Program-made: the position numbers and the translations under genes
The notes under the pieces: model-generated
Database searches by the model: none
What the model saw: only the letters and a program-made list of their open reading frames with translations
Told to the model about the DNA's origin: nothing
In this document: piece after piece, positions 42,680 through 48,947 of the stretch
Numbering within the stretch: position 1 is the stretch's first letter
How the letters are laid out: each line of letters starts with the position of its first letter
Assembly (NCBI RefSeq): GCF_003813965.1
Contig: NZ_CP033896.1
Coordinates: forward strand, 1,798,001 to 1,862,000
From: Corynebacterium choanae
Lineage (GTDB): Bacteria; Actinomycetota; Actinomycetes; Mycobacteriales; Mycobacteriaceae
DNA length: 64,000 nucleotides
Direction of reading: 5' to 3'

Positions 42680-43651
42680 CTAGGCTCGCGGATGGGCTCG
42701 TTGAAACACCTCAAGCAGGTGCTGTTCAGAGACATGGGTATAGATTTGGGTGGTTGACAGGGAGGAATGCCCGAGCAACAGCTGGACTAGGCGTAAATCG
42801 GCGCCGTGGTTGAGTAAATCGGTGGCGACACTGTGGCGCAGTGCATGAGGGGAAAGGGCGTCGATACCCGCAGCGGATGCTAGCCGTTGCACAATCCGTC
42901 GCACTTGCCGCGGATCAATGCGACCACCTTGGTTGCCAACAAATACTGCGGTGGTGTCAGGGTTGGCCAGCGTATCGCGGTATTCGAGCCACAGCTGCAA
43001 CGCATGGTGGGCAGGTTCACCGAAGGGGACGGTGCGCTGCTTGCCGCCTTTCCCGGTTACGCGAAGCATTCGTCTATGTTCGTCGATGTCGTGAAGCTGG
43101 AGTCCGGTAAGTTCACTAACCCGCAGACCGGTTGCATACATAAGCTCGACGATGCAATAGTCACGGGCGATGACAGCAGCCTGCTTCGGGCGGGAGCCGG
43201 TTCGCTGTCCGATACTGCTGCCATCATCAACCCCAGCAGCTGTACTGTCTGCTAGTGGATGGGGTGCTTGCAGCAGCTGGGTGGTTTCTTCCTCGCGAAG
43301 CACCCGGGGCAAGGTGCGGCCGACTTGAGCAACGGTAAGACGCAGCGACGGATCTGTGGGGATAAGCCCTTGTTTCCGCGCCCAACTGCAAAATTGTCGA
43401 ATCGCCGCCGTGCGACGGGCCATTGTCGACGCAGACATTCCATGGCGTTTCTGCTGATACAAAAAGTCACGGAGATATTCCAACGTCAAGTCCTGCAAAC
43501 CTGATAGACCGTCCAGCACCAGGGCTATATCGGCGGTGTAGGCAGTAACCGTATTCGAGCTGCAGTTGCGCACATGCTCAAGCCACAGCCCAAATTCGTC
43601 GATGAGCGATGACCATTGCACGTCACCGGAAGCTGTCTTCGGCGATTCCAC
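42680..43651 (-). CDS. xerC: Tyrosine recombinase XerC
   Basis: Site-specific recombinase that resolves chromosome dimers at dif together with XerD. The N-terminal SAM-like core-binding domain (FGLWLEHVRNCSSNTVTAY) is followed by the catalytic domain. Arg is in ATGLRVSELTGLQ, HALRH in LSPHALRHSVATDLL, His in LLGHSSLSTTQIYTHV, and the Tyr nucleophile is in that same segment. The likely start is GTG 43651 (VESPKTASGD), 323 residues; the open frame to 43888 is longer than the family. The stretch between (TGSRPKQAAVIARD) is a short insertion. Confidence 0.92.
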   Translation of the reverse strand: MESPKTASGDVQWSSLIDEFGLWLEHVRNCSSNTVTAYTADIALVLDGLSGLQDLTLEYLRDFLYQQKRHGMSASTMARRTAAIRQFCSWARKQGLIPTDPSLRLTVAQVGRTLPRVLREEETTQLLQAPHPLADSTAAGVDDGSSIGQRTGSRPKQAAVIARDYCIVELMYATGLRVSELTGLQLHDIDEHRRMLRVTGKGGKQRTVPFGEPAHHALQLWLEYRDTLANPDTTAVFVGNQGGRIDPRQVRRIVQRLASAAGIDALSPHALRHSVATDLLNHGADLRLVQLLLGHSSLSTTQIYTHVSEQHLLEVFQRAHPRA

Positions 43652-43903
43652 AACACCACAGTGTAGTGCACCGATGTGGACAAGTCTGATTGACTTGGGC
43701 GCCGCAATACCTGCGTTCAACCCGCTGCTACACGACACCAGGTAAGGTGTACACGCCACGGCCCCGGCAAGGTGGTGCGGTGGCACACGGCCTGCAGCAC
43801 ACAACCAGGTCAACACACACTCACCTGCTGATCGATAATTGCATGCCAGGCACACCCCTACGCCTGCATGCGCACCACTGCCCTGCAAATACGCAGCCTG
43901 ACT

Positions 43904-45427
43904 CTACGCAGGTGGGGTGTGGTGTTGCTCTGTCGTGCTCCGGGTGAGCCAAAACAGTTGTTGGTTACAGTCAATTTTTCGACTGTAGTGCAACGCGACC
44001 AACTGCCGAGACAACACCGCTGGCGGCAACCCCGACAATTGCAGCAACTGGGCGAACGTGTGTTTCCCGGGCTGTGTTTGTAAGGCATGGATCACCTGCT
44101 GCTGAAGTGACTGGCAGGCGGCGGCGGTAGTGTTATCGACTGCCAGCGGTAACACCTGGGCACGAATATCTGTTGAGTTCGCAACGAGTTGGGCTTGCTG
44201 CTCGGCAATTAGCCGATGGCATCCCATCGATCCAGGTTGATCAACCGGACCGGGAATCGCTAGCACAGGTGTGTTACAAGCAGTTGCTGCCGCGATACAC
44301 AACGAACTCACCGCATCGTTGCGATAATCCACCATCACCACAGCATCAGCCCAAGCAGCAACCAGCATGGCCGTATCGGCCACAGAAGTAGCCGGTGTTC
44401 GCTTTCCTGGTGGGAACCGGGACACCACCATGCCACCCCGGTGCGCAAACGTATCCAACAACTCGGCTGTGCGACGACAGGACACTTGTCCTAACGCCAC
44501 CGGCACCACCGCAATCGCCGATGTCCCCGAAGCCGTAGTGGCCTGCTGCAGCACCCGAAACCCAATCCCGTCCACGGGCACCGTCAACACCGTGATTCGG
44601 TCATCACGCAGCAAACTGCGCACAATCCGAGTCACAGTGTCCACCGCATACACAGCCGGCCGGCTGCTGCCCAGCACTGCAACCACCCGCCGCCGCGCCG
44701 GGGAAGATGCTGCCTGGATTGGATCTAGCTGTAAGGCAGCGCCGCTGTCCTGGTGTACCGATTTACCGCCGGCACACCACAGGGTTCGTGGATACACCCA
44801 ACCTGGGGCGTGGACTGTACTGGCAGCCGGTTGCACACTGTGGCAGTTGGTATCGGTCTGGCCGGATTGTGACAATGATGCTGGGCAGGCTGAGTGCACA
44901 TCCTCTTTTTGCCGTTTCAGCACACGGTTGGGATCCTCCACTGGCCCGTGCTGTTGGAGCCTTCCTGCACCGGCTGGTCTGTGCTTTCCAGGGTTTTCCG
45001 AAAAATGTGTGTGTGCTGCAGGTGGTGGCGGCACCCTGTTACCTGGCTGCGTGTTCGCCGCAGACCCCGCCGGTATCCCTGTTCGTTGCTTGGTCGGGTT
45101 AGTTCCAGGTTGCGGCGCCGAATGACGCGCACCAGTAGCCTTCCGATTTTCCTGCCTCGGGTCAGGATTCCCAATATCTGTGGGTGTCGCTGTGGTGGCG
45201 AAGGTCTCCATGGTGCAGCCCTGCACAGGTATCCCCGATGCCCGAAGATACCCAAAAGCTCGCGCAAACTGACGTGTCGGCCACGCTGGATGGGAAGAAT
45301 TGAACTCCCGCACAGGTGAATGGTGATAGGTAGCCTGCCGGGCACCATCTTCAGCGTGCGACCAGTGTGCATTACTCGATGCGTGAGCCCCAGCAGCATC
45401 CCGATACGGTGACGATTGACCGATCAT
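43904..45427 (-). CDS. dprA: Divergent DprA (DNA processing protein) with decayed motifs and a long insert
   Basis: DprA normally loads RecA on incoming single-stranded DNA. Recognisable here are HPAWPTRQFARAFGYL (about residues 46-61) of the N-terminal part and a Rossmann-like core (about 249-427) with VVAVLGSSRPA, PPGKRTP and the well kept IPGPVDQPGSMGCHRLI. A winged-helix C-terminus (442-492, QVIHALQTQPGKHTFAQLL) closes the protein. Lost are the GID..AH helix (here VDGIGFRVL) and the RNR..AGLS region (here SVADTAMLVAAW). An approximately 140-residue Pro/Gln/His-rich insert (71-212) splits the protein, and the usual first 60-100 residues are missing. ATG 45427 overlaps the comM stop by 4 bases, the coupling found in intact operons. 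507 residues. Confidence 0.75.
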   Translation of the reverse strand: MIGQSSPYRDAAGAHASSNAHWSHAEDGARQATYHHSPVREFNSSHPAWPTRQFARAFGYLRASGIPVQGCTMETFATTATPTDIGNPDPRQENRKATGARHSAPQPGTNPTKQRTGIPAGSAANTQPGNRVPPPPAAHTHFSENPGKHRPAGAGRLQQHGPVEDPNRVLKRQKEDVHSACPASLSQSGQTDTNCHSVQPAASTVHAPGWVYPRTLWCAGGKSVHQDSGAALQLDPIQAASSPARRRVVAVLGSSRPAVYAVDTVTRIVRSLLRDDRITVLTVPVDGIGFRVLQQATTASGTSAIAVVPVALGQVSCRRTAELLDTFAHRGGMVVSRFPPGKRTPATSVADTAMLVAAWADAVVMVDYRNDAVSSLCIAAATACNTPVLAIPGPVDQPGSMGCHRLIAEQQAQLVANSTDIRAQVLPLAVDNTTAAACQSLQQQVIHALQTQPGKHTFAQLLQLSGLPPAVLSRQLVALHYSRKIDCNQQLFWLTRSTTEQHHTPPA

Positions 45428-47670
45428 AAATCCCCCTTTTCCCTCGCTGATTGTGCGGTTGCACACGGGTGCACAGCATCAGCGACAACAGAGACTTCAG
45501 CATGGGTAGGAACCGCTTTTCCTGCCAAGTCAGCGACAGTCCAGGCAAATCGCAGCAGCAGCCGTCTCCTAGCTGGAGTCATCGCTGCAAGGACTGCTGC
45601 AAGCGGTCGAATATTGCTGCTATGACACGCAACCCGCATAAAGTCTGCATAATGCACGCCCGCATTTGTGGCCACCGATCCACTCATTCCCTGCCATCGT
45701 CGATGCGCCTGCCAGGCCATCGATTGCAGCAGGCACGCCACATGCGACTGTATCGAATCCGGCAATTGTTGCTCCGCCACAGGAATCGGGAGTGCCCCTT
45801 GCAGATGTCCGGTGGCGTCGATAATCCGGGAAACGGAAAACCAGCGGCCACAACCGGTGGTCACCAGCACTGGTTGCTGGTGAAACTCTCTCATCTGCAA
45901 GGCGGCCAGCAGCGCAGGTGGTGTCTTCGAATCGAGAACAACAATGGCGTCGGAACGGTGCTGCTGTCGATGCGGGGCGACAATAGCAAAACCAGCACCA
46001 AGCACATGCCCGGCGCGACTCGCCTCCGGCGACACATACTGCAAAGCAGGTTCACCAGGACACGCGCCAGACGCAAAGTGTTCAGCAGCCCGGTCACGCA
46101 GTGGGGTGTCTCGACTGGTGTCCCAATTTTTCGCTGACCTGTTGGCGCTGTGTGGCAGGCATGCACCGGCTGCCGGGGTGGATGGTTGCTCAATAATCCA
46201 AGCTTTCACCGAACTGCCATCGACACACTGCCATTTTCGCCCCAGCACACGCTGCATTGCCGCAGCCACCTGCTGGGCTGTCTGCACATCGGTGCCGGGG
46301 ATAAGCGGGTGGCCGCCAACAATACCGGTCGCTATCCCAAGCAGGAACGGATCAGCGGCCACTCGAGGCTGTGTTCTGCCGCAATAGCGGGTCAGCACCT
46401 CCCAATTCACGGATCCGATGGCAATATCCACCCCAGTCCGCACCTGGTCGACACCAGGTTCATCGGGTGCCTTCTCGCACCGGACAAGTGATGAGGTGTC
46501 AGCCGTCAATATTCCACAGTTCGCAGGGGTAGACGGCGGGTTGTTCGGCGAACGATCGGTTTGCTGCTGTCCACAATCGACCGCTGATACTCTTGTGCGC
46601 CGAGCACTGTTTGTTGCAGCATCTGGCTTGTTCACGGTCGCAGCGGGAAAACAGTGCATCCTCTTGTTTCCAACGCGAGATCTTGCTGCAGCAACCGCAG
46701 CAATGCTTGTAGTCTCTGCGGTGGTTGCGGCCAGTTGCTGTGCCAATGCAGTCACCGCGGCCACGGTGTCTGGGGAATATGAGGGAGCGCTCTCGTGAGG
46801 TGACGGCGGCACCCCCACCGCAGCAATGTTGCCCTGACCGTTGCTATCAGCTGCCTGGTGGTGTGTCGCTGGAGGTTGTTGCGTCGGGTGCGCGAGACAA
46901 CGATGTGTTGCTGACAATGCTGCCGCGGCCATCGGTGCGTTAAGCGGTAGGTTTGATTGTGTCGCCACCCGGTGCGGGTGGGCTTCTTCCATCCCAGTGT
47001 CCTGCGCTGGGTGAAGCAGCGATGAACAAGGTAGCGGCTGCGTATTCAGGTTTTGCTGGACAGCACCACTATGCAGAACACCTGATCTTGCTTGCGCTCG
47101 TGGACTAGGAGGTGTTGGCTGCTGGAGAAACTCCAGGACTTCCTGCACGGTTTCACCCGCAAAGCAGGTGAGCTCTGCGCCGGTTATGCCGGGCGGCAGC
47201 TGTGCATCGGCGGCAATAATTGCCATCCCAAAGCCTGCTTTTTGCGCCGCACCGCACCGCTGCTGTAGTCCCGGAACTGGCACGAGTCGACCACTTGGGG
47301 TTACCCGGGAGAGCAATACTATCTTCTCCAAATGGGATGCCACCCGATCCCTTTGTGGCTGAGGCAGCAATCCACACACCACTGCCATCACTGCCGCAAG
47401 ATCACAGTCTGCAAATGCCGACTGCCGCAACATACCGCTGCAGGTGAGCTGCATCTGGCAAGTATTTGGCACCGTGAGAAGTTGCTCAACGATCCTTCCG
47501 ATCCGGCTAACCCATCCCCGCCAACTGGGTTCATCGACTGCCGGATGCAACCAGCTGCACAGCTTTCCTCCGGGGGCGTTTACACCGGGCAAAGTTACCG
47601 GCCGGGTCTGTAACCGGTGTAACTGCGGTGTAGACCCGTTGGTGGTTACCGTGACAGCTTGGCTGTACAT
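45424..47670 (-). CDS. Divergent ComM/YifB (Mg-chelatase-like ATPase) lacking Walker motifs
   Basis: ComM is a hexameric AAA+ helicase for recombination of taken-up DNA. The N-terminal Lon-like domain is still recognisable (DCDLAAVMAVVCGLLPQ; SRVTPSGRLVPVPGL; AAQKAGFGMAIIAADAQLPP). The AAA region keeps only traces. GGHPLIPGTDVQTAQQVAA (residues about 452-470) stands where the Walker A of GGHHLLLIGPPGSGKT should be. VVLDSKTPPALL (about 577) stands where Walker B LFLDE should be; its Asp remains and the Glu is Ser. The C-terminal RFAWTVADLAGKAVPTH is canonical. About 230 Ala/Thr/Pro/Gln-rich residues separate the two domains. ATG 47670 overlaps yraN, giving 748 residues against about 500 in the family. 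Confidence 0.75.
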   Translation of the reverse strand: MYSQAVTVTTNGSTPQLHRLQTRPVTLPGVNAPGGKLCSWLHPAVDEPSWRGWVSRIGRIVEQLLTVPNTCQMQLTCSGMLRQSAFADCDLAAVMAVVCGLLPQPQRDRVASHLEKIVLLSRVTPSGRLVPVPGLQQRCGAAQKAGFGMAIIAADAQLPPGITGAELTCFAGETVQEVLEFLQQPTPPSPRAQARSGVLHSGAVQQNLNTQPLPCSSLLHPAQDTGMEEAHPHRVATQSNLPLNAPMAAAALSATHRCLAHPTQQPPATHHQAADSNGQGNIAAVGVPPSPHESAPSYSPDTVAAVTALAQQLAATTAETTSIAAVAAARSRVGNKRMHCFPAATVNKPDAATNSARRTRVSAVDCGQQQTDRSPNNPPSTPANCGILTADTSSLVRCEKAPDEPGVDQVRTGVDIAIGSVNWEVLTRYCGRTQPRVAADPFLLGIATGIVGGHPLIPGTDVQTAQQVAAAMQRVLGRKWQCVDGSSVKAWIIEQPSTPAAGACLPHSANRSAKNWDTSRDTPLRDRAAEHFASGACPGEPALQYVSPEASRAGHVLGAGFAIVAPHRQQHRSDAIVVLDSKTPPALLAALQMREFHQQPVLVTTGCGRWFSVSRIIDATGHLQGALPIPVAEQQLPDSIQSHVACLLQSMAWQAHRRWQGMSGSVATNAGVHYADFMRVACHSSNIRPLAAVLAAMTPARRRLLLRFAWTVADLAGKAVPTHAEVSVVADAVHPCATAQSAREKGDL

Positions 47671-48233
47671 GGCGCAAACACCTCCTGCCACTGCCAACAC
47701 CACAATGCTGTCCGAGAGGTTGCAAGCCGCCACAATTGCACAGTGTGTGCACAGTAACGACTGCTTTCGTCTGCTTCCGGCAACACCGGCAGTGAATTGT
47801 TGACCTGTGCTAGTTGGGTGAGTGTAACCCCACGAGTGTGGGTACTTGCAGCAATCACCCGGGAGGGAAACGCTGCTACCGCATCGATCCAAAAGGGCGA
47901 CAATACCTCTGCGGAACAGTCTGGCATCACCCCCACCACATCGAGCCGCACGCTGCTTGCCGAATGCACTCCTGCCAAGCGTTTGCCGGCACGGGCAAGC
48001 TGCGCAAAATATCCACTCGACAACGGCACCCTCCCATCGGTTGGGGGTCGAATAAGTGTTTTTACCGCTACTACAGCTAATTCGTGGGCAGGATATTCCA
48101 CCAGCAGATCTGCTTCAGCCTTGGGATATCGCACATTTTCTTGGCGGATCATCGCCCCCTGCTGCTCGTAGCAAAGCGTTGCAGCGGTCTGATTTCGGCG
48201 CAAATTCGGCCGATAGGTCGACAAAGACAACAT
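47646..48233 (-). CDS. Divergent YraN-like (UPF0102) protein lacking the nuclease Glu
   Basis: YraN-type proteins have a Holliday-junction-resolvase-like PD-(D/E)xK fold. Here EADLLVEYPAHELAVVAVKTL (first 20 residues: EADLLVEYPAHELAVVAVKT) keeps the acidic residues and the Lys, but the consensus EVK is AVK. The N-terminal GExxAxxYL helix is reduced to NQTAATLCYEQQG. RLDVVGVMPD is the conserved C-terminal strand. About 80 residues beyond it have no recognised family match. ATG 48233 gives 195 residues, against about 120 in the family. First gene of the yraN-comM-dprA unit. Confidence 0.6.
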   Translation of the reverse strand: MLSLSTYRPNLRRNQTAATLCYEQQGAMIRQENVRYPKAEADLLVEYPAHELAVVAVKTLIRPPTDGRVPLSSGYFAQLARAGKRLAGVHSASSVRLDVVGVMPDCSAEVLSPFWIDAVAAFPSRVIAASTHTRGVTLTQLAQVNNSLPVLPEADESSRYCAHTVQLWRLATSRTALWCWQWQEVFAPCTAKLSR

Positions 48234-48638: not shown

Positions 48639-48947
48639 CTACTGCTCTGGAACGTACATGTCCGGTTTATCAAGCTCTTCGATATTGACATCCTTATAGG
48701 TGATCACCCGCACATAGCGAACGAAACGCGCCGCCCGGTACATATCCCACACCCACGCATCAGACATGCGAATCTCGTAGTACACGTCAAGACCCTGATT
48801 GTGCGGAATGAGTTCTACCGCGTTGGCAAGATAAAAGCGCCGCTCAGTTTCAATCACATAAGAGAATTGGCTGACAATGTCGCGATATTCGCGGTAGAGC
48901 GACAGCTCAACATCAGCCTCATAGTTGTCGAGTTCTTCAGCGCTCAC
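48639..48947 (-). CDS. DUF2469 protein
   Basis: Short acidic cytoplasmic protein conserved in actinobacteria next to rnhB; function unknown. The sequence is typical over its whole length: MSAEELDNYEADVELSLYRE at the start, VVYYEIRMSDAWVWDMYR-like segment (here LDVYYEIRMSDAWVWDMYRA), and FVRYVRVITYKDVNIEEL. 102 residues. About 85 bases downstream of rnhB, probably cotranscribed, and followed by a terminator. Confidence 0.93.
   Translation of the reverse strand: MSAEELDNYEADVELSLYREYRDIVSQFSYVIETERRFYLANAVELIPHNQGLDVYYEIRMSDAWVWDMYRAARFVRYVRVITYKDVNIEELDKPDMYVPEQ

Follow-up and report, generated by a model that had tools for sequence, protein, structure and literature searches.

Why would a bacterium keep three overlapping genes open when their products have lost the residues by which their families are recognised as enzymes? 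The question is raised by the yraN-comM-dprA trio of Corynebacterium choanae, which lies on the minus strand of a 64,000-nucleotide stretch of contig NZ_CP033896.1 (positions 1,798,001 to 1,862,000), hereafter the window, in whose coordinates all features are given. An earlier inspection of the letters and their translations (the sequence-only reading) had described an operon of preserved structure and lost catalytic motifs, and had offered either a joint decay that followed the loss of DNA uptake or repurposing of all three proteins as non-catalytic partners. Our analysis leans, by a modest balance, towards the latter.

Open frames and missing motifs

The trio consists of a yraN-like gene (47646..48233; 195 codons), a comM-like gene (45424..47670; 748 codons) and a dprA-like gene (43904..45427; 507 codons), with family-like starts at 48233, 47670 and 45427. 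Both overlaps reported earlier, 25 bases between yraN and comM and 4 bases (ATGA) between comM and dprA, were confirmed on the minus strand, as was the count of about 1,450 open codons (exactly 1,450, with no stops). Codon statistics favoured the annotated frame in most 150-base intervals; the exceptions within genes were centred on 47575, 46525, 45025, 44950 and 44050, and the 5′ part of dprA had a weak absolute coding signal. On indirect evidence, translation of the three genes is probable, as is some purifying selection on them. The families named earlier proved real, but the similarity is weak, two of the three Pfam scores (UPF0102 and Mg_chelatase_C) being below cut-off.

The YraN-like protein (195 amino acids, aa), a probable UPF0102 family member with a broken active site, scored 19.2 bits against Pfam UPF0102 (PF02021; cut-off 23.6) and 34.6 bits against a local profile of 78 YraN rows. 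It resembles YraN in the fold region of the profile core, in its place in the operon and in the overlap with comM, but its C-terminus is longer, the early Glu is unaligned, and an Ala codon (48066..48068, minus strand) stands at the Glu position of the ExK site. The change from EVK to AVK was thus verified by profile alignment, in which the E-D-E-K quartet reads -DAK and the catalytic residues are lost; we take this quartet to be catalytic from its conserved columns and the PD-(D/E)XK motif.

In the ComM-like protein the loss extends beyond two motifs to the entire AAA+ core. Compared with ComM/YifB (TIGR00368; PDB 8rxt, 8rxs, 8rxd), it is alike in its Lon-like N-terminal domain, C-terminal helical domain and operon place, but is 748 rather than about 500 aa long, with a long low-confidence middle and neither a P-loop nor a recognisable AAA+ core. 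The Lon-like (ChlI) domain (47101..47622, minus strand; residues 17–190, confident from 51) was recognised by family-profile and structure comparison and had no Pfam match at E 1. The C-terminal Mg_chelatase_C domain (45466..45759, minus strand) scored 15.2 bits against Pfam (cut-off 26) and 20.7 bits against the local family profile, with a predicted local distance difference test score (pLDDT) of 77–93 over residues 641–730; other ComM proteins match it at residues 710–807 of the 822-aa frame. Both kept domains match ComM structures. Between them, the former core and its inserts (45763..47079, minus strand) matched an AAA+ core profile at chance level (194 of 500 shuffles as good), and pLDDT in the AlphaFold model was mostly <50; the model is weak here because the central part of the window ComM is wrongly placed in a global alignment. 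A hidden Walker motif was found neither by the family profile nor by hhalign or the AAA+ core profile. The reported absence of Walker A therefore stood, whereas the replacements proposed for it (PGTDVQTA) and for the Walker B Glu (Ser) received no support from the alignments; PGTDVQTA may still mark the site of Walker A, through a GGH.LI.PG stretch common to the ComM-like proteins of the window and of Corynebacterium mendelii (E 0.036). In the latter protein a GGHdLI relic remains immediately in front of the lost Walker A (none of 500 shuffles scored as well). In Gram-negative bacteria the canonical helicase for branch migration during transformation is ComM, whereas Firmicutes use RadA, and disruption of Walker A abolishes the DNA binding and helicase activity of ComM (PMC11612176). 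Because of this effect, a ComM without its motor is not expected to act as a branch-migration helicase.

The DprA-like protein (507 aa) scored 58.3 bits against Pfam DNA_processg_A (PF02481; cut-off 29.6) and 55.2 bits against the NCBIfam equivalog TIGR00732 (cut-off 191.15). Its Rossmann domain (44144..44695, minus strand; pLDDT 90–97 over residues 251–420) and C-terminal winged-helix region (43943..44107, minus strand; pLDDT 76–91; DprA_WH 14.5 bits, cut-off 22.9) were modelled with confidence and match DprA structures (PDB 3uqz, 3maj), and the stretch PGP..S.GCH.LI.E.AQLV is kept. In contrast to DprA, the pocket motifs are gone, not only RNR and GID..AH, as had been noticed, but also GTR and RSGA, and the N-terminal part is rewritten and of low confidence. 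Of the 39 core columns with a conservation of at least 95% across 94 rows from relatives, 12 are kept by the window protein and 26 by that of C. mendelii. A long Pro/Thr/Gln/His-rich insert (44700–45200; residues ~78–240), mostly of low pLDDT and with a weak coding signal, separates the N-terminal remnant from the Rossmann fold.

Corynebacterium mendelii and the pace of change

The host genome is a single contig of 2,986,773 bases (99.95% complete), and the relatives compared are Corynebacterium. The minus-strand order is lepB, rnhB, DUF2469, the trio and xerC, the flanking genes being named as we take them to be. This is the usual Corynebacterium site, with DUF2469 (48639..48947, minus strand) and xerC (42680..43888, minus strand) on its two sides as synteny markers; yraN, comM and dprA adjoin in the same order in 76 of the 80 neighbourhoods fetched with DUF2469, C. 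mendelii included. A single-sequence search with the window ComM reached 16 of the 242 Corynebacterium genomes surveyed, namely its own and 15 others weakly (E 6e-5 to 0.0097); C. mendelii was outside this set and was found through synteny.

C. mendelii CCM 8862 (locus L075, genome G141) has the same three overlapping genes with no stops, a dead YraN (Cys, not Ala, at the ExK Glu position by profile alignment; quartet -DCV) and a motorless ComM. Its DprA is far less degenerate than that of the window, keeping RNR and scoring 243 versus 82 bits against the family profile. In a tree built from six flanking proteins, which carries long-branch warnings and covers 85 of 86 rows (a short one was dropped), the two species are joined at a Shimodaira–Hasegawa-like approximate likelihood ratio (SH-aLRT) of 100; under a mixture model, with a selection of 35 rows, they are joined at 100/100. 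The divergence is deep: the six flanking proteins are 73% identical, and synonymous divergence (dS) is ~2.2 for rnhB and xerC. In pairwise BLAST the YraN-like proteins align gap-free for 104 codons with 33% identity (E 3e-13), and those of DprA type align for 272 with 29% (E 3e-16). The synonymous (pS) and nonsynonymous (pN) proportions of difference were 0.71 and 0.51 for YraN and 0.66 and 0.49 for DprA, values that are indicative only, because synonymous sites are at or close to saturation.

Strong degeneration of DprA sets this clade apart. The DprA core of the pair is 29% identical versus 60% expected, and among 441 intact pairs of comparable distance none was as low. The mean residual was −4.55 for the window, −2.6 for C. 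mendelii and −1.2 for G050, and lay between −0.32 and 0.42 for G186, Corynebacterium otitidis and G224, the lowest of 74 intact genomes being −2.0. The DprA search found the protein in 242 of 242 genomes, weakly in G000 (1.9e-16), G184 (1.2e-29) and G141 (1.4e-37). In G184, this unusually weak DprA (in two matches) occurs alongside strong ComM and YraN matches, and the DprA core of Corynebacterium pilosum (L078) changed faster than expected (residual −2.0) with ComM Walker A and YraN ExK intact.

ComM and YraN across the genus

A PF01078 match over cut-off was present in all 242 genomes, because this domain picks up other ATPases as well. In 236 genomes the best match was 7.4e-35 or stronger, and in six it was only 3.3e-9 or weaker: G000, G050, G141 (C. 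mendelii), G152 (C. otitidis, to which its flanks are identical), G186 and G224. The weak matches of G141 and G152 sit elsewhere in the genome, and we presume the same for the other four. YraN (PF02021) matched at 1.2e-14 or stronger in 236 genomes, and the same six lacked a strong match, with none at 0.001 in G000, G152, G186 and G224 and weak ones in G050 (5.0e-6) and G141 (1.4e-4).

The E-D-E-K quartet was intact in 96 of 96 YraN rows from other loci, to which the residue check extends; these are rows, not species, and come from two overlapping locus sets. It was broken in all five ComM-less genomes with a YraN-like frame, one of them a weak match: besides -DAK and -DCV, it reads RDDS in G050, VDDS in G186 and RPDR in C. 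otitidis. No comM was found at the locus in these last three genomes, and their YraN-like frames (217, 290 and 258 aa, respectively; starts set mechanically) overlap dprA. In G224, neither yraN nor comM was found near DUF2469 and dprA. Genus-wide, loss of ComM is associated with catalytic loss in YraN. Parsimony on the tree required at least four changes for the ComM-less state, and a single common clade was rejected (approximately unbiased test, p-AU 0.0002). G050 and G186, whose frames are 42% identical overall, carry the very same LVVVDVSVRRG where the ExK site would be, which is what a role for the dead site would lead one to expect. In both (L160 2065–2718 and L161 8106–8978, respectively), the YraN-like frame adjoins a normal-scoring dprA. 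Corynebacterium marambiense (L089), considered as a further ComM-broken case, was rejected, since a strong ComM match lies elsewhere in its genome; at 14050–14770 of L089, yraN and a truncated comM start lie ~6 kb from DUF2469.

Loss of ComEC does not account for this pattern. The window genome has an open comEC and open frames that look like comEA and holA, so that comEC and a probable comEA, whose presence was in question, were both found. The ComEC Competence domain is present in all six ComM-less genomes and in nine of nine others tested (partial in G155, in two pieces in G001), and ComEC loss as the trigger was therefore rejected. One in-frame TGA lies inside the Competence-domain match of C. 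otitidis (L170, G152). Joint decay following loss of uptake, as the sequence-only reading had considered, is thus unsupported, comEC being open, ComEC present in the six genomes and the frames open over a deep divergence (pilus genes were outside the search, so that uptake may have been lost by another route). Nor is there a second intact comM or dprA in the window genome, which has one DprA match and, as its sole ChlI-domain match, a frame that presumably encodes a RadA-like protein.

Decay, coupling or retained partners

The reading that we find somewhat better than even is that a standard yraN-comM-dprA operon was turned into pseudoenzymes that persist as non-catalytic partners; repurposing of all three proteins fits the data better than joint decay, a retained function being what we infer. 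The ancestor of C. choanae and C. mendelii would have lost the ComM AAA+ motor. Without its helicase partner the YraN nuclease may have been useless or harmful, and its active site would then have been lost because the motor was gone; what the genus-wide survey shows is the association, and the order of events is our proposal. DprA would have followed in this clade, while the YraN core, the Lon-like and C-terminal domains of ComM and the Rossmann and winged-helix folds of DprA would have been kept. Branch migration could fall to the RadA-like protein, whose gene lies elsewhere. Our most likely guess is that the retained proteins are non-catalytic scaffolds that bind DNA or RecA, or non-catalytic regulators of homologous recombination.

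The principal competitor, which we consider unlikely though well worth weighing, is slow decay under relaxed selection, with a useless module whose frames are open by chance or for want of time. The very fast change of all three genes, their low-complexity inserts, and the missing comM (in G224 also yraN) at the loci of G050, G186, C. otitidis and G224 would agree with it. Against it stands C. mendelii, in which, for all its deep divergence, the trio is in the same condition and every frame is open, with YraN similarity running gapless over 104 codons; among simulated unselected trios, 28 of 500 were still open at 0.02 changes per site and none of 500 at 0.05 or more, in a simulation that was lenient because it used substitutions only, without indels. 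Neutral decay is therefore unlikely, an argument that would weaken if catalysis had been lost late and separately in each lineage. A less probable view is that yraN and comM are kept open only to couple translation to dprA through overlapping stops and starts. The overlaps are kept in the window, and in G050, G186 and C. otitidis the first dprA start falls 4–13 bases inside the dead yraN frame (mechanical starts); yet such a leader needs no fold, whereas the YraN core and ComM terminal domains are recognisable, the dprA of G224 stands without yraN and comM, and the window DprA is itself degenerate, so that there would be little to protect. Adaptive change towards a new role such as DNA sensing, driven by conflict with phages or plasmids, seems more improbable still, ShosA ranking below DprA structures in comparison with the window protein. 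An assembly or sequencing artefact has a negligible chance of explaining a single-contig, 99.95% complete genome with open overlapping frames whose state recurs in the independent C. mendelii assembly.

Several observations weigh against persistence as non-catalytic partners. The independent events are few, and a paired sign test (p 0.25) is underpowered, since only three independent pairs on well supported branches prevent it from reaching significance. G224, without yraN and comM, makes the keeping of a dead YraN not obligatory, and the YraN call in C. otitidis is weak (13 bits). The AAA+ region of the window protein cannot be aligned, the two ComM-like proteins have hardly any similarity (E 0.003 for the best piece), and pN < pS comes from local alignments, which favour similarity. 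Very fast DprA change would also be expected under relaxed selection, and DprA still scores normally in three of the four ComM-less lineages, so that losing ComM does not entail losing DprA. The AlphaFold models were built on alignments rich in intact homologues, and the function that we favour is predicted from sequence and models.

With persistence as pseudoenzymes still preferred, YraN nuclease would depend on ComM. YraN is called a helicase-associated nuclease in PMC12455585, which cites the Hardy et al. 2024 preprint. No title or abstract brought up by our open-access PMC searches dealt with a ComM that lacks its motor or a YraN whose site is dead. A bolder form of the reading, which we hold tentatively and rate below even, is that the nuclease is tolerated only together with the ComM motor, so that each loss of ComM leads either to deletion of YraN or to a conserved pseudonuclease coupled to dprA, and that in the clade of C. 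choanae and C. mendelii the whole operon has become a non-catalytic complex controlling recombination. The trio would offer a natural genetic test of the idea that YraN works for ComM, since where the motor is gone the nuclease site is gone as well, and it makes non-catalytic roles of YraN, ComM and DprA testable in bacteria in which the role of this operon is unclear.
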